From Nocardioides gilvus (GTDB lineage: Bacteria > Actinomycetota > Actinomycetes > Propionibacteriales > Nocardioidaceae): a DNA stretch of 64,000 nt. This document shows, in pieces, positions 12,190 through 46,667 of the stretch. The position numbers and the translations under genes are program-made. The stretch covers positions 1-64,000 of the forward strand of contig NZ_QHKY01000001.1 in assembly GCF_003194605.1 (NCBI RefSeq), read 5' to 3'. The notes beneath the pieces were generated by a model that was not told the origin of the DNA, ran no database searches, and worked only from the letters and a program-made list of their open reading frames with translations. Each line of letters opens with the position of its first letter. The stretch's first letter is position 1.

Positions 12190-14670
12190 TCAGCGCTGGA
12201 CGGCGCCCACCTTCGCCACCGCGGCCGCAACCGCTGCATCGCGGAAGGCGCTCGTGTCCTTCTCGGTGAGGGTGCGGTCGTCGGCGCGGAAGCGGAGCGC
12301 GAAGGCCAGCGACTTCTTGCCCGCCCCGACCTGCTGTCCGGTGTAGACGTCGAAGAGTCGGATCGACTCCAACACGTCACCGGCCCCACTGCGCAGGGCC
12401 GCCTCCACGTCGGCTGCGGCGACCGTTTCGTCCACGACGAGGGCCACGTCCTCCTTGGCGAGGGGCTGGGTCGAGAAGGTCGGTGCAGGCCGCAGATGAA
12501 CTGCGTGCTCGATCAGTACGTCCAGGTCGGCTTCGGCCGCGACGCTCCCGCGCGGCAGCCCCAGGGCCGTACAGACCTTGGGGTGCAGCTCGCCGGCATG
12601 GCCGACGACCTCGCCCGCCACGCTCAGCTCGGCACAGCGGCCGGGGTGCCACGGGGCCATCTCGACCCCGCGCGTCGTGACCGACAGACCGACGGAGTCA
12701 GCGACGGCCCGGACTGCCTCGACGGCGTCGGCCCACGTCACTCCGCGTCCCTCACCCCACCACCCGGAGGCGTCCGCCTCTCCGACGCCGACGAGCGCGA
12801 TGTGCAACGGCTGCCGGGGAAGCGCAGCGTCAAGAGCAGCGAACTCCTCCTTGCTCGGTCGAGCATCCACCGGGAGGATCGGCGCCACACCGCCGGTGGG
12901 AAGCGTGACGGTCGCGGTCTCGAAGAGGCCGAAGGAGGAGGCGCCGTAGCCGACGTTGCGCGCGGCCGCCCGCAGCAGACCGACCAGCACCGTGGTGGTC
13001 ATCAACGGCGCTTCGTTGCTCAGCGGGTTGGCCAGACGCAGCGCGTTGCGGCGTACGTCGTCAGTCGGGATGCCCAGGGCGTCGAAGTCGCTCTCCCCCA
13101 CGAACGGGAAGGTGACGATCTCGGTGAATCCCTCCGCAGCGGCCGCCCGACCGAAGCGGCGGCGCAACTGCTGGGCCCTGGTCAGTCCTCGACCCGCGGG
13201 CGGGATCGGCAGCACTGACGGCACCTTGTCGTAGCCGACGAGACGGATGACCTCCTCCGTGGTGTCCTGGGCGTCGGTCAGGTCGGGGCGCCACGGCGGC
13301 GGCACGACGGTGAGCGTGCCCGATCCGGTGACGTCGCAGCCCACCGCGCGCAGGGCCTCCACGGCCGTCTCCTCGGAGATCTCCATCCCGGAGACGAGAG
13401 CCGCCTTGTCGCCGGAGACCGTGATCACGGGCGCCTCGGGGGGCGTGCCGACCACGGTGACACCCGGGTCGGCGCTCGCGCCGCCGTGGGCCACCAGCAG
13501 CTCGACCACTCGATCTGCCGCAGCCTCGCAGATCGTCGGGTCGACACCGCGCTCGTTGCGCTTGCCTGCCTCCGACGAGATCTTGTGACGCTTGCCCGTG
13601 CGGAACATCGAGACCGCGTCCCAGTGGGCCGACTCGACGAGGATCGACGTGGTCGACTCCCCCATCTCCGTGGTCTCCCCGCCCATCACGCCACCGAGCC
13701 CGATGATGCCGGAGTCGTCGGTGACGACCAGGTCCTCGGTCGAGAGCGTGCGGTCGGTGCCGTCGAGGGTCGTGAGGGTCTCGCCCGCGCGAGCACGTCG
13801 TACGACGATCGCTCCGCGCAACTTGTCGGCGTCGTAACCGTGGATCGGACGGCCCGTCTCGAGCATCACGTAGTTGGTGATGTCGACCGCCAGCGAGATC
13901 GAGCGCATCCCCGCAGCGACGAGGCGCTGCGAGATGTAGCTCGGTGTCGGGGCGGAGGGGTCGAAGCCGGTGACCTTGCGGGCCACGAAGACCGGGCACC
14001 CGACGGTGTCCTCCAGCACGACCGGGTGACCCTGGTCGTTGGCCGCAGGGGTGTCACGGATCGCGGGGTCGCGGAAGTTCGTCGCCCCCTCCACGGAGAC
14101 GGCCAGGTCGCGAGCGATACCGCGCAGTGAGAGACCGTACGCACGGTCCGGGTTGACCTCGAACTCGATGATCTCCTCGTCCAGACCGAGGACCGAGCGC
14201 ACGTCCTGACCGGGCTCGCCGGCGTCGGAGGGCAGCACGATGATGCCGTCGTCGTCCTCGGGCAGACCCAGCTCGGAGGTCGAGCAGATCATGCCTGCCG
14301 AGAGGTGGCCGTAGGTCTTGCGCTCAGAGATGGCGAAGTTGCCGGGGAGTACGCCGCCCGGGAGGATCACCACGACCAGGTCGCCGGGAGCGAAGTTGTG
14401 CGCGCCGCAGACGATGCCCTGAGGCTGGCCGGTGCCGTTCGCGTCACCGACGTCGACGGTGCACCAGTTGATGACCTTGCCGTTCTTCTGCGGCTCGGGC
14501 TCCATGGTGAGGACGCGGCCGATCACCAGCGGACCGGTGATCTGGGCGCCGGGGCTGTCGATCGCCTCGAGCTTGAGACCCGTCATGGTGAGTCGTCGGG
14601 TGATCTCGTCGGTGGTCACGTCGGCGGGGACGTCGACGTACTCCTTGATCCAGGAGATGGGTGCCTTCAT
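12190..14670 (-). CDS. pheT: Phenylalanine--tRNA ligase beta subunit
   Basis: 826 residues, normal for bacterial PheT. Domains in order: N-terminal B1 (APISWIKEYVDVP), an OB-fold tRNA-binding region at roughly 40-150 (VIGRVLTMEPEP), B3/B4 editing region, B5 domain, a catalytic-like core (LRRRFGRAAAAEGFTEIVTFPF), and the C-terminal ferredoxin-like anticodon-binding domain (PTFSTQPLAKEDVALVVDE). It pairs with PheS as an alpha2-beta2 enzyme that charges tRNA-Phe. It follows pheS by 12 bp, so the two form an operon. Confidence 0.97.
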   Translation of the reverse strand: MKAPISWIKEYVDVPADVTTDEITRRLTMTGLKLEAIDSPGAQITGPLVIGRVLTMEPEPQKNGKVINWCTVDVGDANGTGQPQGIVCGAHNFAPGDLVVVILPGGVLPGNFAISERKTYGHLSAGMICSTSELGLPEDDDGIIVLPSDAGEPGQDVRSVLGLDEEIIEFEVNPDRAYGLSLRGIARDLAVSVEGATNFRDPAIRDTPAANDQGHPVVLEDTVGCPVFVARKVTGFDPSAPTPSYISQRLVAAGMRSISLAVDITNYVMLETGRPIHGYDADKLRGAIVVRRARAGETLTTLDGTDRTLSTEDLVVTDDSGIIGLGGVMGGETTEMGESTTSILVESAHWDAVSMFRTGKRHKISSEAGKRNERGVDPTICEAAADRVVELLVAHGGASADPGVTVVGTPPEAPVITVSGDKAALVSGMEISEETAVEALRAVGCDVTGSGTLTVVPPPWRPDLTDAQDTTEEVIRLVGYDKVPSVLPIPPAGRGLTRAQQLRRRFGRAAAAEGFTEIVTFPFVGESDFDALGIPTDDVRRNALRLANPLSNEAPLMTTTVLVGLLRAAARNVGYGASSFGLFETATVTLPTGGVAPILPVDARPSKEEFAALDAALPRQPLHIALVGVGEADASGWWGEGRGVTWADAVEAVRAVADSVGLSVTTRGVEMAPWHPGRCAELSVAGEVVGHAGELHPKVCTALGLPRGSVAAEADLDVLIEHAVHLRPAPTFSTQPLAKEDVALVVDETVAAADVEAALRSGAGDVLESIRLFDVYTGQQVGAGKKSLAFALRFRADDRTLTEKDTSAFRDAAVAAAVAKVGAVQR

Positions 14671-14682
14671 GGGTGCTGGTCC

Positions 14683-15780
14683 TCAAATCTCGGTGCCGAA
14701 GGCGGAGGCGAAGCGCACGTCGCCCTCGAAGAGCGGGCGCAGGTCCTCCAGGTTGTGGCGGAACATGAACGAGCGGTCGATGCCCATGCCGAAGGCGAAG
14801 CCGGAGTAGACCTCCGGGTCGACGCCGCAGGCGATCAGGACTCGGGGGTTGACCACGCCGCAGCCACCCCACTCGATCCAGCCCTCGCCTCGACAGGTGC
14901 GGCACTCCTCGGAGTTCTCTCCGAGGCAGACGAAGCACCTCAGGTCGACCTCGGCGCTGGGCTCGGTGAAGGGGAAGTACGACGGGCGGAAGCGGGTGTC
15001 GACGCCTTCGCCGAACATCCGCGTCGCGAAGTGGTCGAGCGCGCCCTTCAGGTGGGCCATCGAGATGCCTTTGTCCACGACCAGCCCTTCGACCTGGTGG
15101 AACATCGGGCTGTGGGTCGCGTCGTACTCGTCGGTGCGGAAGACCCGACCCGGGCAGGCGATGTAGATCGGCGGCTTGCGGGTGAGCATGGTCCGGGCCT
15201 GGACCGGCGAGGTCTGGGTCCGCAGCACCACGTGGTTCTCCGCGGGCTCGGTCCAGAAGGTGTCCTGCATCGTGCGGGCCGGGTGGTCCGGTCCGAGGTT
15301 GAGGGCGTCGAAGTTGAGCCACTCGGCCTCCACCAACGGGCCTTCGGCGATCTCCCACCCCATGGCGACGAAGATGTCGGCGATCAGCTCGGACTGCAGT
15401 GTCAGCGGGTGGCGTGAACCGCGCCGACGACGAGCCGTGGGCAGGGTGACGTCCACGGTCTCGGTCAGCAGCATCCGCTCCTCGTGCTCGACCTCGAGCA
15501 CGGCCTGACGTTCGGCGATCGCCTTGTTGACGGCTCCACGGGCCTGGCCGATGCGTTGGCCGGCTTCCTTGCGGGCCTGCGGCGGCAGGGCGCCGATCTC
15601 GCGGTTGGCCAGGGCCAGCGGCGACCTGTCACCGGCGTGCTCGAGCCGTGCCTGCTTGAGTTCATCGAGGTCCTGAGCTGCCGCGACCGCCACCAACGCT
15701 GCATCGCGTGCGGCCTCGAGCTCTTCAGCCTTGAGCGGGGTGACCTCGACGGGGTCGTAATCGTTGTTGGGGCCGGACAT
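14683..15780 (-). CDS. pheS: Phenylalanine--tRNA ligase alpha subunit
   Basis: 365 residues; class-II synthetase catalytic subunit. Motif 2 region FRTDEYDATHSPMFHQVEG and motif 3 GFAFGMGIDR are present. A four-cysteine cluster (CFVCLGENSEECRTCRGEGW) sits in the insertion where many bacterial PheS proteins bind zinc. The start is the ATG at 15780, preceded by the ribosome site GGAAAGGGAG; an in-frame extension of eight codons upstream lacks such a site. The N-terminal coiled coil (about 20-90) contacts tRNA in known structures. Confidence 0.97.
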   Translation of the reverse strand: MSGPNNDYDPVEVTPLKAEELEAARDAALVAVAAAQDLDELKQARLEHAGDRSPLALANREIGALPPQARKEAGQRIGQARGAVNKAIAERQAVLEVEHEERMLLTETVDVTLPTARRRRGSRHPLTLQSELIADIFVAMGWEIAEGPLVEAEWLNFDALNLGPDHPARTMQDTFWTEPAENHVVLRTQTSPVQARTMLTRKPPIYIACPGRVFRTDEYDATHSPMFHQVEGLVVDKGISMAHLKGALDHFATRMFGEGVDTRFRPSYFPFTEPSAEVDLRCFVCLGENSEECRTCRGEGWIEWGGCGVVNPRVLIACGVDPEVYSGFAFGMGIDRSFMFRHNLEDLRPLFEGDVRFASAFGTEI

Positions 15781-15817
15781 GGCTCCCTTTCCAGCTGCGG
15801 GCACACGGACGCAGCAG

Positions 15818-15905: not shown

Positions 15906-18518
15906 TCACCCTCCGGAGTCACTCCCGGTCTCGGGGCCCGAACCCCCCAGGGCACGCACGCACTCGCCGCCGCCGGCGGGGCGTACGTCGCCCAACTGCG
16001 ACATCGCCTCGTCGGCGCGGGCCCGGCCGATGCTCCAGGACTCCCAGCCGAACTCGTCGCTCTCCGCGTCGTACGTGCGCCCCGCACCCCGCGGGCCGAG
16101 CTCCACCACGCAGCGAGCCAGCTCGGGGTCGAGACGGTCGACCACCGTGGGCAGCGCACCGTCCCCGAGCTGGGCCAGGTACTCCACGTCGAGCCGACCC
16201 GTGCGCTCGAAGCGATCGATGTTGCGCTCGGCCACGAAGGCGTCCAGGTTCAGCAGGCTGAGCGCCAGAACCACCGCGGCTCCGCTGACCAGTGCCACGC
16301 GGGGCACCCAGCGGGCCCTGCCGAGGAGCCCGAGGATCATCACGGCGGCCACGACGAACCCGAGCCAACCTTCGAAGGCATTGACCAGGACCCGCAGCTG
16401 GGTGAAACCGTAGGCGTCCTGGTAGACGGCCATCCGCGCCAGGGCCGACACGACCACCCCCAGCGTCAGCGCCCCCAGGATGCCCGTGGAGATGCGCAGC
16501 CACCGTCTGTCCGCAGCGCTCGCACCCGCACGGCGCGATGCGGCCCAGACGACGACCAGGGCGAGTGCCGTGGCGACGACCAACTGACCGAAGCCTTCGT
16601 GCACGTACTCGGCGTAGCTCAGCCCGACCGTCTCACGCAGGTACTCGTGCCCAGCCAGGACGACGAAGACCTGGGAGGCCACGAAGACCGCGAAGATGGC
16701 ATCGACCACGAGCACCGGGGCCAGCCACTCCCAGCGGTTCGCGGACGGGGTGACCTCGCGCTCGACCGGGTCGACCCGCACCGGGTTGCGTCCGAGGTAG
16801 GCGGCGGCCAGCGTCATTGCGAAGACTCCCCCGGCCACGAAGAGTCGAGCCACGGCGGTGTCGACCCTCAGCTCAGGGATGAGGTTGTCGAGCCAGCGCG
16901 CCAACACCGCGTCGGCGGAGACGAAGAGGAGACCGAAGACCAGGGTCAGACCCGAGGAGACCAGGATCGTCCTGACCACCGCCGGTCCGCGTGCGGTGGA
17001 GCCCGCGAGGTGCAACGTACGGGCGAACCACGGCATGCCACGCAGGGACGAGAGTGGCCAGGCGAAGCCGGAAGCCAGCATGCCGCGCAGCGTACGAGCA
17101 CCGGTCACACCGCTGAGGAAGGTGCCGGCCGCGACGAAGATGGCCACCGCGACCATCGGACTGGTCGAGTTGACGAGCACGCTCAGCACCAGTGCCGTGG
17201 CCAGTGCGGTGGTGACCAGGGTGAACGTCTCGCGTCGTCTGGCCGAGGCCCACCACGCGGTCGCTCCTGCAGCGGTCAGGACCAGCACCCAGCCCACTCC
17301 CGGGCCGGAGAAGGCCATGACCGCTCCTGCCAGAAGGCCCACCGCAGCACTCGCCCCGACGACCCGCAGGTCCGGCTCGGGACTGCGCTCGGGCCACCGA
17401 GACACCAGTGGATGCTCGGTGACCAAGGGCGCGGCGGTGGGCGACGCGACACCGGAGGTCACGGGGTAGGGCTGCTGCCCGATGTCGACGGTGAGCGGGG
17501 CGGGCGCCGAGGCACTGATCGCCCGGGCGCTCGGCAACGCCGACAGGTCGAGGCGCAGCCGGGCCCCGGACGAACCGGCGTCGGGCTCGAGGAAGGCCAA
17601 CTGTCCCTCGTGCAACCGGGCCACCCAACGCGCGATGGCCAGGCCGACCCCCGTCCCACCGCCGGCGGCATCAGTGCCGAACCGTTCGAAGACCCGTTCT
17701 CTCTCCTCGGGGGCCACCCCCGGCCCTTCGTCGAGCACCTCGAGCCACCACGCTCCGGAGGCCTCGGTCCCGGCATGCACCCGCACCACGCTCTCGGCCG
17801 GGGCGTGACGAGCGGCGTTGTCCAGCACGTTGATGAGCAGTTGACGCATGCGGGCAGGGTCGACAAGGACCTGCATGCCCTCGGGGATTGACAGCTCCAC
17901 ACGCGGGTCACGCCCGGTGGACCGGACGTCGGTCAGGCACTGGTCGACCAGCTCACGCAGGTCCACCGGGGCCAGGTCGAGATCCACGACTCCCGCCTCG
18001 AGGCGCGACAGGTTGAGGAGGTCCCTCACCAGGGCGCCGAGCCGTTCGGCGCTGTCGAGCACCTGCTCGAGGTGGTCACGGTCAACCTCGACGACCCCGT
18101 CCACCAGGTTCTCCAGCTGGGCCGTGATCGCAGCCACCGGCGTACGCAACTCGTGGGAGACCGTGGCGATGAGGTCGCGTCTCTCGACGTCCACCTTCTC
18201 GAGGTCGGCCGCCATCTGGTTGAAGGCAGCCGCGAGACGCCCCACCTCGTCGGTGTTCTGGGTGCGGACGCGGACGCCGTGGGCGCCGCGTGCCATCCCC
18301 TGGGCCGCCGCGGTCATCTCCTGCAGTGGGGCCACCATGCCGGCGGCAAGCAGCTGGGTCACGACCAGCGCGAGGAGCAGGGTCACCGGAAGGGTCAGGA
18401 CCAGCGGCACTCCGGTGAGCCCACCGATGGCTGCCACCACCGCGGCGACGGTCGCCGCTGCGATCACCAGAGCACCCAGCTTGACCTTGATGGAGCCGAT
18501 GCCTTCGAGCCAGCTCAT
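15906..18518 (-). CDS. Sensor histidine kinase fused to a DUF4173/DUF4153-type membrane domain
   Basis: 870 residues in one continuous frame. Residues 15-60 form two membrane helices with almost no outside loop, followed by HAMP (about 60-112) and HisKA with H122 in ATVSHELRTP. The ATPase domain has an N box near N234 (INVLDNAARH), DEGPG at 263-267 and GGGTGVGLAIA at 287-297. After a Pro/Ala linker, roughly residues 390-740 form many membrane helices resembling the DUF4173/DUF4153 family. A soluble outer or cytoplasmic tail follows. The ATG overlaps the regulator stop by 4 bp, so the two are partners. The membrane part may be the sensor, placed at the C-terminus instead of the usual N-terminus; that is inference. 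Confidence 0.85.
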   Translation of the reverse strand: MSWLEGIGSIKVKLGALVIAAATVAAVVAAIGGLTGVPLVLTLPVTLLLALVVTQLLAAGMVAPLQEMTAAAQGMARGAHGVRVRTQNTDEVGRLAAAFNQMAADLEKVDVERRDLIATVSHELRTPVAAITAQLENLVDGVVEVDRDHLEQVLDSAERLGALVRDLLNLSRLEAGVVDLDLAPVDLRELVDQCLTDVRSTGRDPRVELSIPEGMQVLVDPARMRQLLINVLDNAARHAPAESVVRVHAGTEASGAWWLEVLDEGPGVAPEERERVFERFGTDAAGGGTGVGLAIARWVARLHEGQLAFLEPDAGSSGARLRLDLSALPSARAISASAPAPLTVDIGQQPYPVTSGVASPTAAPLVTEHPLVSRWPERSPEPDLRVVGASAAVGLLAGAVMAFSGPGVGWVLVLTAAGATAWWASARRRETFTLVTTALATALVLSVLVNSTSPMVAVAIFVAAGTFLSGVTGARTLRGMLASGFAWPLSSLRGMPWFARTLHLAGSTARGPAVVRTILVSSGLTLVFGLLFVSADAVLARWLDNLIPELRVDTAVARLFVAGGVFAMTLAAAYLGRNPVRVDPVEREVTPSANRWEWLAPVLVVDAIFAVFVASQVFVVLAGHEYLRETVGLSYAEYVHEGFGQLVVATALALVVVWAASRRAGASAADRRWLRISTGILGALTLGVVVSALARMAVYQDAYGFTQLRVLVNAFEGWLGFVVAAVMILGLLGRARWVPRVALVSGAAVVLALSLLNLDAFVAERNIDRFERTGRLDVEYLAQLGDGALPTVVDRLDPELARCVVELGPRGAGRTYDAESDEFGWESWSIGRARADEAMSQLGDVRPAGGGECVRALGGSGPETGSDSGG

Positions 18519-19204
18519 GAGGACACCTCGAGCGCGTACCCGACTCCGTGGACGGTCCTGATCCGATCCGCGCCGATCTTGGCACGCAGGGCCTTCACGT
18601 GACTGTCAACCGTCCGGGTGCCGGCGGCGTCCGCCCAGTCCCACACCTCGGCGAGCAGGCGTTCGCGGTTGAGCACGCGTCCTGGCTCGTGCGCGAGAAC
18701 GCTCAGCAGGTCGAACTCGGTCCTGGTCAGGTGCACCTCCCGGGTCGCGATCCGGACCCGACGGGTGGCCGGATCGACGTGCAGGTCGCCGATGACCATC
18801 TCGCCCTCGCCGGTCGAGTCCTGGAGCTGGGAGGCCCTTTCCACCCGACGTAGGAGAGCCGCGACCCTGGCGACGACCTCACGGATGCGGAACGGCTTGG
18901 TGAGGTAGTCGTCGGCCCCCACGCCGAGCCCGACCAGGACGTCCGACTCCTCGTCACGCGCAGTGAGCATGAGCACCGGCACCGGACGCTCGGCCTGGAT
19001 CCGGCGGCACACCTCGTGCCCGTCGAAGCCGGGCAACATCACGTCCAGGACCACCACGTCCGGCGACTCGTCGAGGGCCACCCGCACGGCTCCGGGGCCG
19101 TCGAAGGCCTGGAGGACCTCGTACCCCTCCGACCGGAACCGTGCGCTGAGCGCCTCACTGATGCTGCGCTCGTCCTCGACCACGAGGACTCGTCTCTTCG
19201 TCAT
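18515..19204 (-). CDS. OmpR/PhoB-family response regulator
   Basis: 229 residues. Receiver domain with acidic pair E10/D11, phospho-acceptor D54 in VVLDVMLPG and K103 in LTKPF. The C-terminal winged helix (about 135-228) includes LTRTEFDLLSVLAHEPGRVLNRERLL and the recognition region TVDSHVKALRAKIG. It is coupled by a 4-bp overlap to the fused kinase downstream, forming a two-component system. The -10 box TAGGGT (19217-19212) ends 7 bases before the ATG, so the mRNA is probably leaderless. Confidence 0.93.
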   Translation of the reverse strand: MTKRRVLVVEDERSISEALSARFRSEGYEVLQAFDGPGAVRVALDESPDVVVLDVMLPGFDGHEVCRRIQAERPVPVLMLTARDEESDVLVGLGVGADDYLTKPFRIREVVARVAALLRRVERASQLQDSTGEGEMVIGDLHVDPATRRVRIATREVHLTRTEFDLLSVLAHEPGRVLNRERLLAEVWDWADAAGTRTVDSHVKALRAKIGADRIRTVHGVGYALEVSS

Positions 19205-19211
19205 GGCACCG

Positions 19212-19217
19212 ACCCTA
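19212..19217 (-). promoter_or_regulatory. -10 box of the response regulator gene (leaderless type)
   Basis: TAGGGT on the minus strand with 7 bases to the ATG at 19204. No ribosome-binding site fits in between. Confidence 0.5.
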
Positions 19218-19292
19218 GATTCGGACCCGCGCAGGAACAGGGCGCGACGTGTGAAGGTTCTGTGCAGATCGCGGCGACGACGAAGCGGCCAC

Positions 19293-20345
19293 TCAGCGGA
19301 CCTGGTCGCGACGGTCGACCGAGGGCCACCGAATGCTCACCAACGCACCGCCGCCCTCGGCGTCGCCGATGCTCAGGTCACCGCCGTGTGCTCGTGTCAG
19401 TCCGTGCGCCAAGTACATGCCGAGTCCGCTTCCGGCGCTGGAGCCCTGGGTGGTCCAGAACTTCGTGAAGACGCGACGACGCAACTGCTCCGGGATGCCC
19501 TCCCCCTCGTCGGTGACCCGCACTTCGACACCGGGGTACTCGGCCTCCGGCGCCAGGACCCTGAGCCCCACCCGCACGTGCCCGTCCCCATGGCGTACGG
19601 CGTTCTCGACGAGGTTGGTCAGCACCTGGGTGAACTTGTCGGGGTCCGCGAAGATTTCGCCGACCGACGCATCCACCTCGACGTCGAGGGTCACCGGACG
19701 TGAGGTGGCGGCCCCCACCGAGTCGACCACACGCCTGGCCAGGGTCGAGGCGTCGACCTCACGTGGGTAGAGGCTCAGACGTCCGGTGTCGAGACGTGCC
19801 ACGTCGAGCAGTTCTGCGATCAGGCGTGTGAGACGGTCCGCATCGGCGTTGACCGTGTTGAGCATGAGCTTCTTCTGGTCGTCGTTGAGGACGTCCCACC
19901 GGTTCAGCATGGCCTGGACGAACCCCTTGACCCCTGTGAGCGGAGAGCGCAGCTCGTGCGCAACGGTGGCCACGAGATCCGAGCGCTCGCGATCGAGGCG
20001 CGCGCGACCCCGGCCGCTGCGCAACGTGAGGGCAACCTGCTCCACCGGAGCCCCACGACCGGGACGGTGCAGCTTGGCCAGCACCAGGACCTCTTGCCCG
20101 TCGGGCAACAACCATGACTGTTCGGGAATCCCCGAGCGCGTGCCCAGCCCCGCGTAGGGGCAGTTGCTCTCCCACCAACCGACGCCGTGGTGGTCCACCA
20201 GGGACATGACCTCGGCGAGCGGTCGACCGACCTCGGCACCTGCTCCCAACATCCGGCGGGCCACGATGTTGATCGCCCGCACCGTCTGCGTCGCGTCCGC
20301 GACCACCACACCGTCGGGAAGCGCGTCCAGCCACTGTTGGGTCAC
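19293..20345 (-). CDS. Soluble PAS-domain sensor histidine kinase
   Basis: 350 residues with no membrane helix. A PAS-like domain covers about 1-105 (LPDGVVVADATQTVRAINIVARRMLG), followed by HisKA with H130 in ATVAHELRSPLTGVKGF. The ATPase domain follows, with LTNLVENAVRHGDGH, DEGEGIP and GSGLGMYLAHGL. No response regulator is adjacent in the same unit; the nearest is the OmpR-type gene about 90 bp downstream. A kinase at this position between pheST and the rplT cluster is, to my knowledge, common in actinobacteria. GTG start with TAGATT (20358-20353) ending 7 bases before it: probable leaderless mRNA. Confidence 0.9.
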   Translation of the reverse strand: MTQQWLDALPDGVVVADATQTVRAINIVARRMLGAGAEVGRPLAEVMSLVDHHGVGWWESNCPYAGLGTRSGIPEQSWLLPDGQEVLVLAKLHRPGRGAPVEQVALTLRSGRGRARLDRERSDLVATVAHELRSPLTGVKGFVQAMLNRWDVLNDDQKKLMLNTVNADADRLTRLIAELLDVARLDTGRLSLYPREVDASTLARRVVDSVGAATSRPVTLDVEVDASVGEIFADPDKFTQVLTNLVENAVRHGDGHVRVGLRVLAPEAEYPGVEVRVTDEGEGIPEQLRRRVFTKFWTTQGSSAGSGLGMYLAHGLTRAHGGDLSIGDAEGGGALVSIRWPSVDRRDQVR

Positions 20346-20352
20346 GAGGGCG

Positions 20353-20358
20353 AATCTA
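20353..20358 (-). promoter_or_regulatory. -10 box of the PAS kinase gene (leaderless type)
   Basis: TAGATT on the minus strand, 7 bases before the GTG at 20345. Confidence 0.45.
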
Positions 20359-20398
20359 ACGAGTCAGACGCCCCGATGTCTGCAGCCCGCACCGGGGT

Positions 20399-21178
20399 TC
20401 AGCGTTGGGCGCGGGCACTGGCGTACAGGCAGACTGCCGCTGCAGTGGCCAGGTTGAGGCTCTCGGCGCGACCGTGGATCGGGATCGAGACCTGCAGGTC
20501 CGCGGCCTGAGCGAGCTCTTCGGGCAGGCCCCACGCCTCGTTGCCGAAGAGCCAGGCGGTCGCGGGAGCGAGGTCGATGTCGAAGAGGTCGCTCTCCCCG
20601 CCACCGTCGGCCGCGAGGACCCGGAGTCCGGTGGCGCGGAGTCGGACGACCGCCTCGACGGGATCATCGACCAGCACGATCGGCAGGTGGAAGAGACTCC
20701 CGACGCTCGCTCGTACCGTCTTGGGGTTGTAGGGGTCCACCGAGTGACCAGCCAGCACCACTGCGCCCGCTCCGGCGGCGTCGCTCGTCCGGATGACGGT
20801 GCCGGCGTTGCCGGGGTCCCGGACGTCAGCGCAGACGGTCACCAGCCTCGGGGACTCGGCGAGGACCTGGTCGAGAGGGACGTCGAGAAAACGACAGAGC
20901 GCCACGAGGCCGGCTGGGGAGACGGAGTCGGAGAGCGAGTCCATGGCGCGGTCCTCGACCAACCAGACCTGCGGGGCACTGACCAAGAGGTCGGCGTACT
21001 GCTCTGCCGCGTCCACGGTCGCGTAGACCTCGATGACGCAGTCGGGCACGGTGAGGGCTCCTTCAACGGCCTTGGGACCGTCGGCAAGGAAAAGCCGCCG
21101 CTCGGTTCGCACCGAGCGGCGGCTGAGTTTCCGTGCCTCCTTGACGCGAGTGTTCGCGTGCGAAAGAGGGGTGTTCAC
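20399..21178 (-). CDS. TrmH/SpoU-family RNA 2'-O-methyltransferase
   Basis: 259 residues. An N-terminal substrate-binding domain (about 1-100, including RRLFLADGPKAVEGA) precedes the SPOUT domain with its knot motifs: DVRDPGNAGTVIRTSDAAGA, WLFGNEAWGLPEEL and VSIPIHGRAESLNLATAAAV. It probably methylates a ribose in 23S rRNA; the exact site cannot be told. It starts at GTG only 7 bp after rplT, with no clear ribosome site. Codons 18-29 encode a perfect 14-bp hairpin followed by a T-run (listed separately), so its expression is probably reduced relative to rplT. Confidence 0.9.
   Translation of the reverse strand: MNTPLSHANTRVKEARKLSRRSVRTERRLFLADGPKAVEGALTVPDCVIEVYATVDAAEQYADLLVSAPQVWLVEDRAMDSLSDSVSPAGLVALCRFLDVPLDQVLAESPRLVTVCADVRDPGNAGTVIRTSDAAGAGAVVLAGHSVDPYNPKTVRASVGSLFHLPIVLVDDPVEAVVRLRATGLRVLAADGGGESDLFDIDLAPATAWLFGNEAWGLPEELAQAADLQVSIPIHGRAESLNLATAAAVCLYASARAQR
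21090..21124 (-). terminator. Intrinsic terminator-like hairpin inside the methyltransferase coding sequence
   Basis: On the minus strand a perfect 14-bp stem (21124-21111 with 21106-21093) closes a GCGA loop and is followed by TTTCCTT. The stem starts about 62 nt after the rplT stop, where a ribosomal-operon terminator would be expected. It is also codons 18-29 of the methyltransferase, encoding the SRRSVRTERRL segment. It is the strongest hairpin I found in the window. Confidence 0.75.
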
Positions 21179-21185
21179 GAAGTCG

Positions 21186-21569
21186 TCAGGACGCCTTGGG
21201 GGCGTTGACGTCCTCGGGCAGAGCAGCCTTGGCAGCCGCCACCAGGGCGGAGAACGCCGGGGCGTCGTTGACGGCCAGCTCAGCCATGATCTTGCGGTCG
21301 ACCTCGATGCCAGCCAGGTTGAGACCCTGGATGAAACGGTTGTAGGTCATGCCTTCGGCGCGGGCAGCGGCGTTGATGCGCTGGATCCAGAGCTTGCGGA
21401 AGTTGCCCTTGTTCTTGCGACGGTCGTTGTAGCTGTAGACCAGCGAGTGGGTGACCTGCTCCTTGGCCTTGCGGTACAGGCGCGAACGCTGACCGCGGTA
21501 GCCGGAGGCGCGCTCCAGGATTACCCGACGCTTCTTGTGGGCGTTTACCGCCCTCTTGACGCGTGCCAT
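21186..21569 (-). CDS. rplT: 50S ribosomal protein L20
   Basis: 127 residues, typical. Contains the L20 core [31 protein letters not shown] and [20 protein letters not shown]. It binds 23S rRNA early in 50S assembly and in many bacteria represses its own operon. Third gene of infC-rpmI-rplT, 74 bp after rpmI. A ribosome site (GGAGTAAGAAA) precedes the ATG. Confidence 0.98.
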
Positions 21570-21643
21570 TTTCTTACTCCTTGATGCTTGTCAGACCGGA
21601 AGCCGACTCGAGGTCAGCGGCCGAAGATGGGGTGAGCGTCGCG

Positions 21644-21838
21644 TCAGCGACCGAGCAGCTTCTTCGCGCGAGGCACGTCAGCCTTGGCAACCTCGACCGT
21701 GCCGGTGAGGCGACGGGTGACCTTGGAGGACTTCTTCTCGAGGTTGTGGCGCTTGCCAGCCTTCTCGCGAAGGATCTTGCCCGATCCGGTCACACGGAAG
21801 CGCTTGCTGGCTCCGGAGTGGGTCTTGTTCTTCGGCAT
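21644..21838 (-). CDS. rpmI: 50S ribosomal protein L35
   Basis: 64 residues, the usual length. Sequence [20 protein letters not shown] followed by [18 protein letters not shown] is clearly L35. It sits between infC and rplT, the standard order. Confidence 0.98.
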
Positions 21839-21903
21839 CTGGATGCTCTCTCTTCTCGTGATGCGTGCGGCGGCCTACCGGGCCACCGAGTACGTGTGGA
21901 AAC

Positions 21904-22584
21904 TCAGGCTTCGATCTCGGGGTCGAGGTTTTCCGAACGGCCGCGTTCCTTCTTCTTCGCGACTTCCTGACCCGGCTTGGGCGCACGGTCGGCGCGCTCC
22001 TGGGCCTCCGCCTCGGCGCGCTCGGCGACCTTGGCGTCCTTCTCGGCCTGGACCTCGACCTTGGCGTCCGCCTTCTTGCGGTGGGGGCCGAGCACCATGA
22101 TCATGTTGCGACCGTCCTGCTTGGGCGAGGACTCGACGAAGCCCAGCTCCTCGACGTCCTCTGCCAGCTTCTGCAGGAGGCGGAAGCCGAGCTCGGGACG
22201 GTGCTGCTCACGGCCACGGAACATGATCGTGATCTTGACCTTGTCACCGGCCTTGAGGAAGCGGACCACGTGGCCCTTCTTCGTCGCGTAGTCGTGCGCG
22301 TCGATCTTGGGACGAAGCTTCATCTCCTTGATGATCACGTTCGTCTGGTTGCGTCGTGCGTCACGGGCCTTCTGGGCGTTCTCGTACTTGAACTTCCCGT
22401 AGTCCATGAGCTTGCAGACGGGCGGGCGACCCTGGGGCGCGATCTCGACCAGGTCGAGATCTGCCTCCTGGGCAAGCTTCAGTGCCTGATCGGTCGGAAC
22501 GATGCCGACCGTCTCACCGTTGGGACCGACGAGCCGAACCTCGGGAACCCGGATCCGGTCGTTGATGCGCAACTCAGTACTGAT
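21904..22584 (-). CDS. infC: Translation initiation factor IF-3, probable ATC start
   Basis: Binds the 30S subunit and checks start-codon choice. The N-domain has [19 protein letters not shown] and the C-domain has [18 protein letters not shown], followed by a charged Lys/Glu/Arg tail (about 175-226). No ATG or GTG fits. GGAGG lies 4 bases before ATC at 22584, whereas the first conventional alternative, TTG at 22572, is 16 bases from it. An ATC start gives 226 residues. Non-AUG starts on infC are the known basis of IF-3 autoregulation, because IF-3 rejects such codons. Confidence 0.93.
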
Positions 22585-22636
22585 GTGTCCTCCAGTGGTT
22601 TGTGCGAATCGGAGACACCGCCCGAAATGAACAATG

Positions 22637-22666
22637 GCTTCCGCTGTGTCGTCAGCGGAAGCCAGT
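22637..22666 (-). terminator. Hairpin in the infC leader, possible attenuator
   Basis: A perfect 12-bp stem (TGGCTTCCGCTG with CAGCGGAAGCCA) with a 6-base loop lies about 53 bases before the infC start. On the minus strand it is followed by TTGTTCATTT, which is only partly U-rich. Leaders of infC operons often carry attenuators; here the role is inferred. The rest of 22585-22888 holds no gene and no promoter I trust. Confidence 0.55.
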
Positions 22667-22888
22667 CACACGTATCCCGGGAACTGAAAACGTGGTGTGA
22701 GATCGGCGCGCCGTGCGGCGTGCTTTTCTCGGACCGGACCCGACGACCTGAATCGGTCGATGCGGGTGGGAGACGTGGTACTTGCCTCCGCTTGGTGATC
22801 GCCCCGACGGTGTCGGATTGATCGGTCAACGGAGCAACAGTAGCCGAAGCGTTCCCGGTGACGCGAATCGACGCGAACTGGTGCCGGC

Positions 22889-23419
22889 TCAGCCGTCGAT
22901 CGAGTCCGCGGGACGGATCCACCCGGTGCGCTCGCCGACCCGGGCCAGAGTCCAACCGGCCGCGAAGGCCTCCAGGTCCTGACCCTCCAGGACGAAGGTC
23001 ACCGGCCCGGCGATGTCGAGGACCAGAGCGGCAGCCTGCTCCTCGACGGCACTCTGGGCCGCGACCGCGGCAGGCACCGGAACCGGCCGGGCGTCGGTGT
23101 TCCAGCGCTGCAGGGTCTCGGTGGAGGTGAACGCGAGCAGGGCCTGGCGCCCGTCGGCCCCGGTGATGAGCACGGTCGCCATGTCACTGCTCTTGTCGTG
23201 GGCCAGGCCCCGGTCGTCGTACTCGACCTCGCCGAGGACTGCCACCACCGGGACCAGCAGGCGGGCCGGTGCCAGCGCCTGGATCACGTCGGCCGAGCGC
23301 GCGGGGGTCACGGCGTAGGCCTCGAGCGCAGCGAGGAGGGCCGGCGAGATCGTGCCGTCGTCGTCCGGGAAGGAGGACTGGAGGATCTCGGCGCCAGCGA
23401 AACGATTCGGGTCAACCAT
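22889..23419 (-). CDS. SseB-family protein
   Basis: 176 residues, soluble. It matches the SseB N-terminal domain layout: LLVPVVAVLGEVEYDDRGL, MATVLITGADGRQALLAFTSTETLQRW and AAALVLDIAGPVTFVLEGQDLEAFAAG. Molecular role unknown; many actinobacteria carry this protein next to infC. Start ATG at 23419; TAGGCT at 23434-23429 ends 9 bases upstream, so any leader is very short. Confidence 0.85.
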   Translation of the reverse strand: MVDPNRFAGAEILQSSFPDDDGTISPALLAALEAYAVTPARSADVIQALAPARLLVPVVAVLGEVEYDDRGLAHDKSSDMATVLITGADGRQALLAFTSTETLQRWNTDARPVPVPAAVAAQSAVEEQAAALVLDIAGPVTFVLEGQDLEAFAAGWTLARVGERTGWIRPADSIDG

Positions 23420-23459
23420 GGTGTGACGAGCCTAGCCGCCGGTGTGGGACGCTGGACGC

Positions 23460-23912
23460 GTGGATGAAGTGACTTGGGGAGCGCTTGCTCTCACGCTGAC
23501 GCTGGCCGGTGGGTTCTACACCTGGTGGGCGTTCACCCGACGCGGGTTGACGCCGGGCATGCGGGGACTGGCGTTGACGCTGCTCCCGATGGCCGCATGG
23601 TTGACCGGCACGCTGCAGATGTTCACCCAGATCGCGAACTCCGTCGGCCGGTGGGCCACGAGCCTGGTCTTCTCCCCCATCGTCTGGCTCGGCACCAGCG
23701 CAGCCGGAGTGTCGGTGGCCCTCTTCCTCCTCGCCCGCCTGATCGACTCGCGTCGTGGGGTGACCCCAGCGGCAGCGGGTCGGGGGGACAAGAGCGTGAA
23801 GTCCGCCCGGGGCAAGAAGTCGCTCCCGCCCGCGACCGGCGCAGGCCCGGCCCCGGTGGACGACGAGTTCGCCGACATCGAGGCCATGCTGCGCAAGCGA
23901 GGCATCCAGTGA
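23460..23912 (+). CDS. Small membrane protein of unknown function
   Basis: 150 residues with three membrane segments (about 3-20, 35-57 and 66-90), then a basic Lys/Arg/Gly linker and the acidic end DDEFADIEAMLRKRGIQ. I do not recognise the family. GTG start chosen because upstream residues are non-hydrophobic and the minus-strand SseB promoter lies there. Its stop overlaps the start of the next gene (GTGA), so it is translated with the deaminase/aldolase gene. Confidence 0.75.
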   Translation: MDEVTWGALALTLTLAGGFYTWWAFTRRGLTPGMRGLALTLLPMAAWLTGTLQMFTQIANSVGRWATSLVFSPIVWLGTSAAGVSVALFLLARLIDSRRGVTPAAAGRGDKSVKSARGKKSLPPATGAGPAPVDDEFADIEAMLRKRGIQ

Positions 23913-25126
23913 CCCCAGCTGGTTGGATCGAACGCAACCAACTCTGGACCCGCCTCAACACCGCTGTCGAGCACCACCCCGAAGACCTCTCCACCCCGAT
24001 CACCGTGGTCGACCTCGACGCCTTCGAGGCCAACGCCGCCGACCTCGTACGCCGCGCGGGAGGCGTACCGATCCGGGTGGCGTCGAAGTCCCTGCGGGTT
24101 CCTGACCTGATCACACGGGCACTCGCCCTCCCCGGCTTCTCGGGGGTGCTGGCCTACACACTGCGCGAAGCTCTCTGGCTCCACGAACACGGCGTCAGCG
24201 ACGACATCGTCGTCGCCTACCCGAGCGTCGACCGGGGCGCCCTGCGCCGAATCGGCGCCGACCCGGCTGCCGCGCGCGCGATCACGCTCATGGTCGACGA
24301 CCCGGCGCACCTCGACCTCGCCGATGCGCACCGGTCCCCCGAGGTCACGCTGCGGGTGGCCCTGGACATCGATGCCGGGCTCCGCTTCGCCGGCCAGCAC
24401 CTCGGGCCCAAGAGGTCTCCGCTCTTCGAGGCGGACGCCGTGATGGCACTGGCCCGAACCGTCGTCGGACGCGCAGGCTTCCGCCTGGCGGGAGTGATGA
24501 CGTACGAAGGTCAGGTCGCGGGGGTCCCCGACGATGTCCCCGGCCAACGCGCCCGCTCGCGCGTCGTACGCCAGGTCAAGCAGGCATCCCTCGCGCAGTT
24601 GGCGCAGCGCCGCCAAGAGTTGAACTCGCGACTCAGCAGCTTGGTCTCGCTGGAGTTCTGGAACGCCGGCGGGTCGGGGTCGGTGAAGGCGACCGCGGCA
24701 GACGGCGCCGTCACCGAGTTGGCCGCCGGATCCGGGCTCCTGGTCCCGGGGCTGTTCGACCACTACCGCTCCTTCGACCCCCTGCCCGCAGCCTTCTTCG
24801 GGCTCCGCGTCTCGCGTCGGCCCTCCGACTCCGTGGTGACGGTGCACGGCGGAGGGCTGGTCGCCTCCGGCACTCCCGGTCCCGACCGGGCGCCCCAGCC
24901 GTGGGCTCCCCCGGGGCTCTCCCTCACCGGACTGGAGGGGGCGGGCGAGGTGCAGACGCCTCTCACCGGCCACCCGGCCGAGGTGCTCAGGATCGGGGAC
25001 CTGGTCTGGTTCCGACACGCCAAGTCGGGAGAGCTCTTCGAGCACACGACGACGGCCCACCTGGTGCGTGGAGACCGCATCGTCGACTCGGTGCCCACCT
25101 ACCGTGGCGCCGGCCAGGCCTTCTGA
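23909..25126 (+). CDS. PLP-dependent amino acid deaminase/aldolase family protein
   Basis: 405 residues. Alanine-racemase-like N-terminal barrel: TPITVVDLDAFEANAADL, with the likely PLP lysine K60 in IRVASKSLRVPD. Later parts contain LRVALDIDAGLRFAG, LAGVMTYEGQVAG and a C-terminal DSD1-like domain with PAEVLRIGDLVWFRHAKSGEL. The family includes D-threonine aldolases and D-serine dehydratases, but the substrate cannot be read from sequence. The GTG start overlaps the upstream stop (GTGA), and a P-loop gene follows 16 bp later. Confidence 0.85.
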   Translation: MTPAGWIERNQLWTRLNTAVEHHPEDLSTPITVVDLDAFEANAADLVRRAGGVPIRVASKSLRVPDLITRALALPGFSGVLAYTLREALWLHEHGVSDDIVVAYPSVDRGALRRIGADPAAARAITLMVDDPAHLDLADAHRSPEVTLRVALDIDAGLRFAGQHLGPKRSPLFEADAVMALARTVVGRAGFRLAGVMTYEGQVAGVPDDVPGQRARSRVVRQVKQASLAQLAQRRQELNSRLSSLVSLEFWNAGGSGSVKATAADGAVTELAAGSGLLVPGLFDHYRSFDPLPAAFFGLRVSRRPSDSVVTVHGGGLVASGTPGPDRAPQPWAPPGLSLTGLEGAGEVQTPLTGHPAEVLRIGDLVWFRHAKSGELFEHTTTAHLVRGDRIVDSVPTYRGAGQAF

Positions 25127-25142
25127 CCAGGCATTCTGACCC

Positions 25143-25718
25143 TTGGCCGCGCTGCCCTCCCCCGAACCCTCTCGTGGTGTCGTCGACCGCGTCCTCGCCC
25201 TGGTGGACAGCCGACCGGCGTCGTTGGGCACAGCACGCCTGCTCTGCATCGACGGACCGACCGGGTCAGGCAAGAGCACCTTGGCCGACAGTCTCGTCGC
25301 GGCCCGTCCGGACACGGGGTTGGTGCGCCTCGACGACCTGCTCGACGGATGGGACGGGCTGCTCGAGGTCGCCGACACCCTGACCCGTGACGTCCTGGTC
25401 CCTCTGTCGCAGGGCCTCGTCGGCTCCTACCGGCGCTACGACTGGCTGGCGGGCGAGTTCGCCGAGACCGTGCTGGTGCCGCACCACCCGCTGCTCGTCG
25501 TCGAGGGGGTGGGGTCCGGCTCGCTGGTCACCGCGCCGTTGCGTAGTGCCCTGGTCTGGCTCGAGGCTCCTGCCGTCCTGCGTCGCCGACGAGGAATCGC
25601 ACGCGACGGGGATGCCTTCGCGCCGCACTGGGCTCGTTGGGCCGCCCAGGAGGAGCAGCTCTTCGCCACTCAGCGCACCAGGTCCGCCGCCGACCTGGTG
25701 ATCGGGACGTTCGCCTGA
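25143..25718 (+). CDS. Uridine kinase-like P-loop protein
   Basis: 191 residues. Walker A GPTGSGKST at 38-46, then LVRLDDLLDGWDGL, PLLVVEGVGSGS and a basic lid-like region (LRRRRGIARDG). The layout fits small nucleoside or nucleotide kinases, but the substrate is unknown. The start is set at TTG; no better ATG or GTG exists before the Walker motif. It is read with the upstream deaminase/aldolase gene. Confidence 0.75.
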   Translation: MAALPSPEPSRGVVDRVLALVDSRPASLGTARLLCIDGPTGSGKSTLADSLVAARPDTGLVRLDDLLDGWDGLLEVADTLTRDVLVPLSQGLVGSYRRYDWLAGEFAETVLVPHHPLLVVEGVGSGSLVTAPLRSALVWLEAPAVLRRRRGIARDGDAFAPHWARWAAQEEQLFATQRTRSAADLVIGTFA

Positions 25719-25737
25719 CAGGGCCCGAGGCGCTCCT

Positions 25738-25743
25738 TAGAGT
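25738..25743 (+). promoter_or_regulatory. -10 box of the DUF1800 gene (leaderless type)
   Basis: TAGAGT, 7 bases before the ATG at 25751. Confidence 0.5.
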
Positions 25744-25750
25744 CCTGCGC

Positions 25751-27226
25751 ATGGCTGAACTGCTGGCTGCCGCTGCCGCACCGCGTACGTACGCGGGTGG
25801 CAAGCTGCTGCCCGCAGGCCAGCGACACCTCGTCAGCAGGTTCTCGTACGGCGTCACGCCCGCCCTCGCGACCCAGGTCCGCCGCAAGGGTGGCGCCAAG
25901 AAGTGGTTCGCCTGGCAGCTCAAGGGAACGGCCATCAAGGACCGCACCCACGCGACGACGAAGACGTGGTGGCCAGACCTGGCCCGTGGCCCGGAGAGCC
26001 TGTGGAAGCGCAGCTCCAGTGGGGTGCGCGGTGGCTGGGAGGTGATGGCTGACTACCAGCGCTGGGTGATCGTGCGGCGGATGACCTCGCAGCAGCAGGT
26101 GCTGGAAACCATGACGCAGTTCTGGGAGGGGCACCTCTACGTCCCCACCAACGGCGAGCAGTGGTTCACCCACCGCGTCTCCTACGGGGAGACCATTCGC
26201 AAGCACGCGCTCGGCCGCTACGACCAGATGCTGTACGCCGCCATCACCCACCCGGCCATGTTGCTCTACCTCGACAACGCGACCTCGACCGCCAAGAGCC
26301 CCAACGAGAACCTCGGGCGCGAACTTCTCGAGCTCCACACCGTGGGGCGCGGTCACTACACGGAGGCCGACGTCAAGGACTCGGCTCGCATCCTCACCGG
26401 CTGGCACGTCGACATGTGGAAGACGTGGAAGGCCTCGTACCGCACCGACATGCACGCCACCGGTCGGGTGAAGGTCAAGAACTTCTCCCACGCCAACGCC
26501 TCGGGGGACGGGCGTGAACTCACCCGGAAGTATCTCCACCACCTGGCCCGTCACCCCGACACCGCACGCCGGATCGCGACGAAGCTCGCCATCAAGTTCG
26601 TCGGCGACAATCCGTCCCCCGCGCTGGTCAGCAAGTTGGCGCGGGTCTACCTGAAGAACGACACAGCCATCAAGCCGGTGCTCAACGCCCTGGTCCAGTC
26701 CAAGGCCTTCAAGGCCTCGGCAGGAAAGAAGGTGCGTGACCCGATCGAGGACGTGATCGCCACCTACCGGGTGCTGGGGGTCAAGGTCGCCAGGCCGACG
26801 TCATCGTCCTCAGGCGCCAACGCCGTCCTCTGGCAGGCCCAGGGCATCGGGGCCACCCCGTTCGGTTGGCCACGGCCCGACGGCACCCCCATCGACAACG
26901 GCCCCTGGACCTCCACGTCGCGGATCCTGGCCTCCCTGCGGAACCACTACACGATGTCGGGCGGGTGGTGGCCGACCGAGCGACTCACCTACCGCACCCC
27001 TCGTTCCTGGGTGCCGAAGTCGGGCATGAGGTTCGACGCCCTGGTCGACCACCTCTCACGGAATTTGTTGCACCGTCCCGCGACGCCGCGTCTCGTGCGG
27101 GCCTGCAGCGAAGCGGTCGGGATCAAGGCCGGGACCAGGATCACCCACGACCATGCGCTGGTGAGATGGCAGATGCCCAGGCTGCTCACGACCGTGCTCG
27201 ACTCCCCCCACTTCTTCGGACGGTGA
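25751..27226 (+). CDS. DUF1800-family protein
   Basis: 491 residues. Typical segments: HLVSRFSYGVTPAL near the start, MTQFWEGHLYV, YLDNATSTAKSPNENLGRE, LLELHTVGRGHYTEADVKDSARILTGWH, and a C-terminal LLTTVLDSPHFFGR. Function unknown; the family is usually paired with DUF1501 proteins and often exported. No clear signal peptide is seen here. The start is the ATG at 25751 with a TANNNT box 7 bases upstream. The DUF1501 gene follows 7 bp later. Confidence 0.88.
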   Translation: MAELLAAAAAPRTYAGGKLLPAGQRHLVSRFSYGVTPALATQVRRKGGAKKWFAWQLKGTAIKDRTHATTKTWWPDLARGPESLWKRSSSGVRGGWEVMADYQRWVIVRRMTSQQQVLETMTQFWEGHLYVPTNGEQWFTHRVSYGETIRKHALGRYDQMLYAAITHPAMLLYLDNATSTAKSPNENLGRELLELHTVGRGHYTEADVKDSARILTGWHVDMWKTWKASYRTDMHATGRVKVKNFSHANASGDGRELTRKYLHHLARHPDTARRIATKLAIKFVGDNPSPALVSKLARVYLKNDTAIKPVLNALVQSKAFKASAGKKVRDPIEDVIATYRVLGVKVARPTSSSSGANAVLWQAQGIGATPFGWPRPDGTPIDNGPWTSTSRILASLRNHYTMSGGWWPTERLTYRTPRSWVPKSGMRFDALVDHLSRNLLHRPATPRLVRACSEAVGIKAGTRITHDHALVRWQMPRLLTTVLDSPHFFGR

Positions 27227-45398: not shown

Positions 45399-46667
45399 TC
45401 ACATCACGAATCGGCGCACGACCTGGTCCCAGATGGCGTGGGCCACGATGTTCTTGGAGCCGCGCTCCACGTCGAGGGCGCTGCCGTCGGCGTCGAGGAT
45501 GACCACGTCGTTGTCCGCCGATCCGAAGACGGCGCCGCCGCTGACGTCGTTGACGACCAGCAGGTCGCATCCCTTGCGGGCAAGCTTGGCCCGTCCCAGC
45601 TCCATGACGGAGCCGGTGGTGTCGCCGGTCTCGGCCGCGAACCCGACCACGACCTGTCCCTGGCGGGCACGGTTCTGAGCCACCTCGGCCAGGATGTCGG
45701 GATTCTGCTCGAGCTCGATGGCGGGGGCCGATCCGTCGGCGGCCTTCTTGATCTTGGACTCGCTCAGCGACGTCGGACGGAAATCGGCGGGGGCCGCAGC
45801 CATGACCACCGCGTCCGCCAGAGCCGCGCCGGCCACCACGGCCTCACGCATCTGTGCCGTCGTCTCGACCTTGCGGACCACGACGCCGGCGGGGTCGGGC
45901 AGAGTCACGTTGGCAGCCACCAGGGTGACCTGCGCCCCGCGGGCCACCGCTGCGCGCGCCAACGCGTACCCCTGGAGCCCGGACGAGCGGTTGCCGAGGA
46001 AACGCACGGGGTCGAGATATTCGCGGGTGCCGCCGGCGGAGACGAGCACGTGGCGACCCGCGAGGTCCTGGGTCACCGCTCCCCGCAGCATGACCTGGAC
46101 GGCACTCTCGAAGATCTCGACCGGCTCGGGCAGGCGGCCCTTGCCGGTGTCCTTGCCGGTGAGCCGCCCCTCTGCCGGTTCCAGGACGACTGCTCCCCGC
46201 TCACGCAGGGTCGCGACGTTGGCCACGGTGGCGGGGTGCTCCCACATCTCCGTGTGCATCGCCGGCGCGAAGACCACGGGGCAGCGGGCGGTCAGCAGGG
46301 TGTTGGTCAACAGGTCGTCCGCCAACCCGTGGGCAGCCTTGGCCATGACGTCCGCCGTGGCGGGCGCCACCACGACCAGATCGGCCTGCTGGCCGATACG
46401 GACGTGCGGCACCTGGTGCACGTCGGCCCACACACCGGCGGAGACGGGCTTGCCGGAGAGCGCAGCCCACGTCGGGGCACCGACGAACTCCAGGGCGGCA
46501 GCGGTCGGCACCACCGTCACGTCGTGTCCTGACTCGGTGAAGCGACGCAGCAACTCGCAGGCCTTGTAGGCCGCGATGCCGCCGCTCACCCCGAGTACGA
46601 CGCGGGGCCGCGCCCCCGAGGGGGGCGCGGCCTCGTCGATCACATCGTCGATCTCGTGTGCAGTCAC
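45399..46667 (-). CDS. coaBC: Bifunctional phosphopantothenoylcysteine decarboxylase / phosphopantothenate--cysteine ligase
   Basis: 422 residues; two steps of coenzyme A synthesis. The flavin decarboxylase part (about 20-195) has [19 protein letters not shown], the catalytic His in [23 protein letters not shown] and the substrate clamp APAMHTEMW. The ligase part has [22 protein letters not shown] and [20 protein letters not shown] start. It follows rpoZ by 40 bp. Confidence 0.96.

Follow-up and report, generated by a model that had tools for sequence, protein, structure and literature searches.

Can the first codons of one gene hold the transcription terminator of the genes in front of it? 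This question is raised by a hairpin in Nocardioides gilvus that lies shortly behind rplT and inside the coding sequence of the following gene, in a window of 64,000 nucleotides (the whole stretch of DNA that was analysed).

The hairpin behind rplT and its genomic context

On the minus strand of the window, a presumed operon begins with infC (initiation factor IF-3, 21904..22572), which is followed by rpmI (ribosomal protein L35, 21644..21838) and rplT (ribosomal protein L20, 21186..21569). Directly downstream of rplT lies the gene of a probable SpoU-family RNA methyltransferase (MTase, 20399..21178), whose GTG start is located 7 nt past rplT and whose product carries the Pfam domains SpoU_methylase and MRM3-like_sub_bind. 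After a gap of 53 nt comes a histidine kinase gene (19293..20345). Genes for a response regulator and a histidine kinase with a DUF4153 domain (15906-19204) lie between this MTase-kinase pair and pheS (14683..15804), and pheT (12190-14670) ends the series, all on the same strand.

The hairpin occupies positions 21093..21124 of the minus strand and consists of a GCGA loop closed by a perfect stem of 14 bp. Read from 21124 to 21093 it is AGCCGCCGCTCGGT-GCGA-ACCGAGCGGCGGCT, followed by the pyrimidine- and T-rich tail TTTCCTTGC (21084..21092), which forms the codons CTT TTC CTT for Leu-Phe-Leu; the tract directly after the stem reads TTTCCTTG. The hairpin begins 61 nt after the rplT stop and 54 nt past the first base of the MTase start codon. 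The sequence-only reading had described this stem, loop and T-rich tail correctly in sequence and coordinates and had put them about 62 nt past the rplT stop, close to the measured distance; its assignment of the stem to codons 18-29 needs to be changed to codons 19-29, with the GTG at 21178 taken as the first codon. The stem is stable and GC-rich, its loop is short (4 nt) and the 141-nt strand around it has a folding z of -5.1, as expected for the stem of an intrinsic terminator. Its place within codons 19-29, where a translating ribosome would block folding, is the one expected for a translation-coupled attenuator.

Within the whole 64 kb, this is the longest perfect stem with a loop of 3-8 nt. 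Only four perfect stems of at least 11 bp are present in the window; in 40 dinucleotide shuffles their number was 0.3 on average, and not one of these shuffles contained a 14-bp stem. Of the remaining stems, one of 13 bp lies at 44038-44070 and one of 12 bp at 46606-46632, both inside long open frames. The 11-bp core stem with a loop of 4-6 nt is found at this single place in the genome. When the peptide was recoded synonymously with the genes' own codon use, 12 of 3000 draws for the window came out at least as stable as the real sequence; among six relatives this number ranged from 1 to 56 per 3000. An insertion of a palindromic mobile element was considered as origin and rejected, since the aligned peptides of hairpin-less relatives are equally long here and the core stem is present a single time in the genome.

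A second terminator-like hairpin is situated about 62 nt upstream of infC (22635..22664, minus strand), with a 12-bp stem and the tail TTGTTCATTT. Hairpins of the type GGCTTCCGC..GCGGAAGCC with a mostly T-rich tail were observed before infC in 41 of the 48 Nocardioidaceae sequences listed (L236 and L241 counted as variants). This upstream element looks like a conserved infC-leader attenuator. An Rfam scan of positions 17000-26000 with E up to 1 matched no known RNA family at either hairpin and returned only a weak snoRNA match at 23720-23779, which is probably due to chance.

Covariation of the stem and codon choice in the tail

Judged from its pattern of change among relatives, the hairpin is under selection as RNA. 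In an alignment of 46 rows, 97.2% of the cells of a 15-pair helix are paired and six pairs are changed on both sides. Out of 500 shuffles, none attained the observed value for four of five helix measures; for the fifth, the number of pair types, 110 did. Slid registers of the same alignment gave at most 64% paired cells. Among 95 distinct rows with the hairpin, 1314 of the 1330 cells in pairs 2-15 (the 14-pair stem) hold standard pairs. The two ends of the helix are looser, with 20 rows non-standard at the outermost pair 1 and 11 at pair 15, which closes the loop. For these 95 rows, 34 branches of a quick tree are reconstructed as changes on both sides of a pair (1-15) that nevertheless keep the pair, a count that depends on a tree in which 47 of 161 forks are open.

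The alternatives found in the stem are plain in themselves and include AGC..GCT versus CAC..GTG, as well as TCG..TCC versus TCC..TCG, an exchange that is synonymous on both sides and is seen in L103 and L118, which belong to different clades. In L228, V..T is swapped to T..V. The peptide over the stem is SRRSVRTERRL in 52 of the 95 rows, SRRSERSERRL in 19, HRRPERSGRRC in five and of other types, SRRSTRVERRL included, in the rest. The proposed double duty of this sequence as protein and as RNA signal is thus borne out, as the pairing persists across relatives where the peptide changes. Relatives that keep the peptide and lose the pairing had been named as counter-evidence; what we observed is the opposite, with the pairing kept while the peptide varies. 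The loop varies as well (GCGA, GAGA, ACGC, CCGC, ACGT and others), and such freedom fits a structural terminator.

The tail shows an unusual codon choice. Directly after the Phe codon, CTT is found in 53, CTC in 41 and ATT in one of the 95 rows, which amounts to CTT in 53/94 and CTG in 0/94 of the rows with leucine. Elsewhere in the same genes (56 loci), 13 of 1435 leucine codons are CTT and 641 are CTG; in rplT the share of CTT is 3/965. Other leucine columns near the gene start (at least 40 rows) contain at most 1.1% CTT, with the exception of the codon before Phe (7/85), which is also part of the tail. On the tree, the hairpin clade shows a minimum of 26 interchanges between CTT and other codons. 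This repeated interchange suggests that the high share of CTT is maintained against the codon bias, and on these codon counts the tail looks selected, too. Contrasts between clades for CTT and CTG, with five independent pairs on supported branches, were too few and gave no significant link of CTT to the hairpin.

The T-rich side follows the direction of transcription, with a mean of 3.8 T in 9 nt behind the stem and a mean of 2.3 A in the 9 nt on the opposite side. A bidirectional terminator was rejected because of this one-sidedness. The T content of the tail is modestly higher with the hairpin than in hairpin-less rows of the family (3.8 vs 3.1 of 9). In the 8 nt counted from the base before Phe there are 3-5 T in all 95 rows, which is weak in comparison with the tail of the infC-upstream hairpin in the same genomes.

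Distribution of the hairpin and other devices at the junction

A match to the MTase protein was obtained in all genomes searched, i.e. 98/98 of the genus and 197/197 of the family, the best match being only at the level of a paralogue in a few of them (e.g. G035 and G092). In the first locus set, from which 48 of 50 loci were used after exclusion of the paralogues L002 and L003, the hairpin is present in all 48 orthologous loci, in a few of them with a mismatch. The covariance model, which was built from 46 distinct sequences, matches 210 of 215 genomes of the genus at E up to 0.01: 186 strongly (E < 1e-12), the genome of the window included, and 24 weakly, with five giving no match. Among the matches listed, those places that were compared with known MTase coordinates fall into the MTase gene. 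Twelve of the 29 genomes without a strong match were inspected. Four of these possess an intergenic hairpin (G001, G011, G052, G071) and five a long-range stem (G003, G004, G054, G186, G235); in the remaining three neither device is clear (G050, with a shifted and imperfect stem, G066 and G069).

Beyond the genus, the hairpin was detected only in the group of Marmoricola endophyticus (g5), namely in five of the 19 genomes of this group that were inspected (loci L051, L052, L053, L055 and L188). A deep origin within the class is not indicated, as the stem was seen at the canonical place in no row from outside the Nocardioidaceae that was examined. Two loci from another genus of the family (L082, L088) have a different hairpin of 13-14 bp in the MTase codons, which lies farther upstream, ends 19 nt before the Phe codon and is devoid of a T tail.

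The comparison of the junctions covered 233 distinct rows, all free of N and with rplT located 40-330 nt ahead of the anchor motif. The motif was missing in 3 of the 170 rows of an earlier set (L003, L109 and L113, the last of which was recovered later) and in three rows of the extended set (L109, L227, L274). The hairpin is present in 95 of the 233 rows; 40 have another local hairpin with a score of at least 11 after rplT (two of these also a long-range stem), 31 have only a long-range stem and 67 have none of these. L215, with a different and shifted stem, is outside the 95, and L178, with a shifted stem of score 9, was left uncounted. Since 67 of 233 rows lack any element at the thresholds used, such a device appears to be dispensable. 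In the 95 hairpin rows, neither a second local hairpin (score of at least 11) after rplT nor a long-range stem was found; weaker stems with a score of 8-10 occur in some of them. Measured from the rplT stop, the Phe codon follows at a median of 92 nt in hairpin rows, 131 nt in rows with the long-range stem, 195 nt in those with another hairpin and 122 nt in those with none.

Four Nocardioides loci nested in the hairpin clade (L177, L179, L180, L181) have lost the hairpin and carry an intergenic one instead. The nesting has an SH-aLRT support of 99 for these four together with L029 and L243. The replacing hairpins have scores of 14-18 and lie 13-80 nt past rplT; their tails are T-rich in three cases (TTCTGTTT, TTCCATTT and TTTCATTT), and there is no clear T tail in L179 (TGTGATCG). 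Intergenic hairpins at this junction are also found in loci named Streptomyces, Streptacidiphilus, Microbispora, Planomonospora and Planotetraspora, the last three being Streptosporangiaceae-type. Very long local hairpins (score 16-17) soon after rplT were noted in L075, L121 and L167.

Many hairpin-less Nocardioidaceae could form a stem that joins the start region of the MTase gene (ATG/GTG GCG AGC) to the RRLAR or RKLAR codons; L056, L058, L064, L080, L113 and L176 are examples among others. At inner positions not used for the choice of rows, 61% of the cells are paired compared with 30-53% in slid registers, in rows that were picked by the start motif (51 of 138 hairpin-less rows) and are mutually related. 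In 2000 shuffles of the arms the mean was 54% and none reached 61%. The residues involved tend to go together, with Lys opposite in 8 of 9 rows with Phe4 and Arg in 9 of 10 rows with Leu4. We regard this long-range start-codon stem of the relatives as a moderately supported lead.

Possible functions and related systems

At a probability of roughly 60%, we take the hairpin to be an intrinsic terminator or attenuator embedded in codons, at which most infC-rpmI-rplT transcripts would end, with a low level of read-through into the MTase gene. RNA polymerase that has passed rplT would meet a very stable GC stem followed by the short pyrimidine/U tail from the Leu-Phe-Leu codons. The majority of the transcripts would stop there, and a minority would read through and yield the full-length MTase as well as those downstream genes that have no promoter of their own. 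Such an arrangement would let one operon with scant intergenic space serve both for ribosomal-protein mRNA in abundance and for a modification enzyme of which little is needed. The T and pyrimidine bias of the tail and the intergenic hairpin in the clade that lost the intragenic one support a function of the terminator type. As the full-length MTase requires read-through, the terminator would have to be incomplete unless another promoter serves the gene. From the sequence features described we infer termination, its efficiency and the operon as a single transcript.

The sequence-only reading had also suggested that translation of the MTase decides on further transcription. An ATG, GTG or TTG start was found in 71 of the 95 hairpin rows, and a wider range left 19 without; a Shine-Dalgarno sequence is absent at 68 of these 71 starts, compared with its presence at 77 of the 77 rplT starts found. 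The start lies at most 9 nt from the rplT stop in 45 of the 71 rows. By the missing Shine-Dalgarno sequences, initiation of the MTase looks weak. An in-frame CTG that overlaps the rplT stop (CTGA) exists in 71 of the 95 rows, including all 19 in which no ATG, GTG or TTG is present between rplT and the hairpin (L045, L048, L103, L105 and 15 others), and in those 19 rows this CTG is possibly used as a start that is reached by re-initiation. Ribosomes initiating at this weak site, next to the end of rplT, would open the stem and thereby favour read-through. The position of the start, mostly without Shine-Dalgarno sequence, makes it plausible, at that strength and not beyond, that translation of the MTase gates between stop and read-through. 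A more elaborate version, which we put forward tentatively and consider doubtful as a whole, is a translation-gated attenuator in the first 30 codons of the MTase gene: ribosomes coming from rplT would re-initiate at the start without Shine-Dalgarno sequence, in some species possibly at the CTG over the rplT stop, and melt the terminator, which would let the MTase and the downstream genes be transcribed. The Nocardioidaceae would then have swapped a start-codon stem, an intergenic terminator and an intragenic terminator at this junction, the intragenic one never occurring with either of the others in its 95 rows.

A stable and conserved stem with a variable loop behind rplT would fit equally well to a stabiliser of the 3' end, which blocks 3' exonucleases and renders the infC-rpmI-rplT mRNA stable and the MTase mRNA unstable without any termination. 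This reading is unlikely, since it does not predict the choice of T- and pyrimidine-rich codons and the missing CTG after the stem. The same codon choice is left unexplained if the stem acts on translation, by slowing ribosomes or hiding the region and so lowering MTase synthesis. The stem between the start region and the RRLAR or RKLAR codons, seen in many hairpin-less relatives, would do likewise in other Nocardioidaceae and speaks for such a role, but that stem is itself only moderately supported and the hairpin of the window, because of its distance to the start codon, should lie outside the initiating ribosome. Translational control is quite improbable in our view.

Known L20 leaders of infC-rpmI-rplT mimic the rRNA site with conserved nucleotides. 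The hairpin described here is unlike them in that it is placed after rplT and has a free loop, and it is not a member of this group according to the unconserved loop and the Rfam scan of 17000-26000 (E up to 1). The likeness lies in the RNA control of the same genes, and L20 leaders are discussed in the portion of PMC7247131 considered here. An operator to which L20 or the MTase itself binds in order to repress its own operon could draw on such precedents, since leaders bound by L20 are an established feature of Gammaproteobacteria and Firmicutes according to the same portion of that source (PMC7247131). However, besides the free loop and the Rfam result, the ends of the stem swap and the 11-bp core stem has no second copy in the genome, a search that a shorter rRNA mimic would fall outside of, so that we judge an operator to be very improbable. 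Hardly credible is a role of the stem as DNA palindrome, protein-binding or cruciform, or its origin as a mere by-product of the Arg-rich peptide. The stem is a palindrome in DNA and the SRRS..ERRL peptide allows pairing, but synonymous recoding rarely yields such a fold, the covariation includes amino acid replacements that preserve the pairing, and the T-rich side is one-sided. The resampling and the covariation together largely refute the by-product reading, which we rejected on these grounds.

The terminator or attenuator reading has a parallel in E. coli, where the rplT-pheM-pheST region contains an attenuator just past rplT and before pheST, in which the leader peptide is encoded separately and the terminator is intergenic. 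In N. gilvus the candidate attenuator likewise lies past rplT, with pheS and pheT downstream on the same strand. It differs from the E. coli device by its place within the gene of an enzyme and by the absence of Phe codons before the hairpin.

Closer in phylogeny are the intrinsic terminators inside transcription units of Streptomyces clavuligerus, which resemble the hairpin in their GC stem and U-rich or U-poor tail (PMC8269248). In the parts of that Term-seq study considered here, non-terminal ends with partial read-through and tails of both kinds are reported, and partial read-through is suggested to adjust how much transcript each gene of a unit yields relative to the others (PMC8269248). 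Given such partial and U-poor ends in a related high-GC group, a weak-tailed terminator that acts partially is a reasonable proposal. The S. clavuligerus examples given in those parts are located between genes, at gene 3' ends (PMC8269248). The Nocardioides hairpin differs from them, as its stem and tail belong to the coding sequence of the downstream gene and are conserved throughout the genus. RNA 3' ends within coding sequences, some with an intrinsic-terminator score, are reported for E. coli in the section of PMC7815308 considered here, and the candidate end proposed for N. gilvus would be of this kind. The E. coli ends come from 3'-end mapping (PMC7815308), the Nocardioides hairpin from sequence conservation and covariation at an operon boundary. 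In the literature searched we found no paper on this hairpin, a statement that holds for those searches only.

If the terminator reading is true, the junction would clearly exemplify how a terminator can evolve within a coding sequence, documented by many lineages and double changes, and how a protein sequence can be bent to preserve the base pairs of a hairpin. The junction offers a natural series of replacements with which the role of the element can be tested. The case also suggests that genes may conceal the boundaries of operons in compact high-GC genomes.
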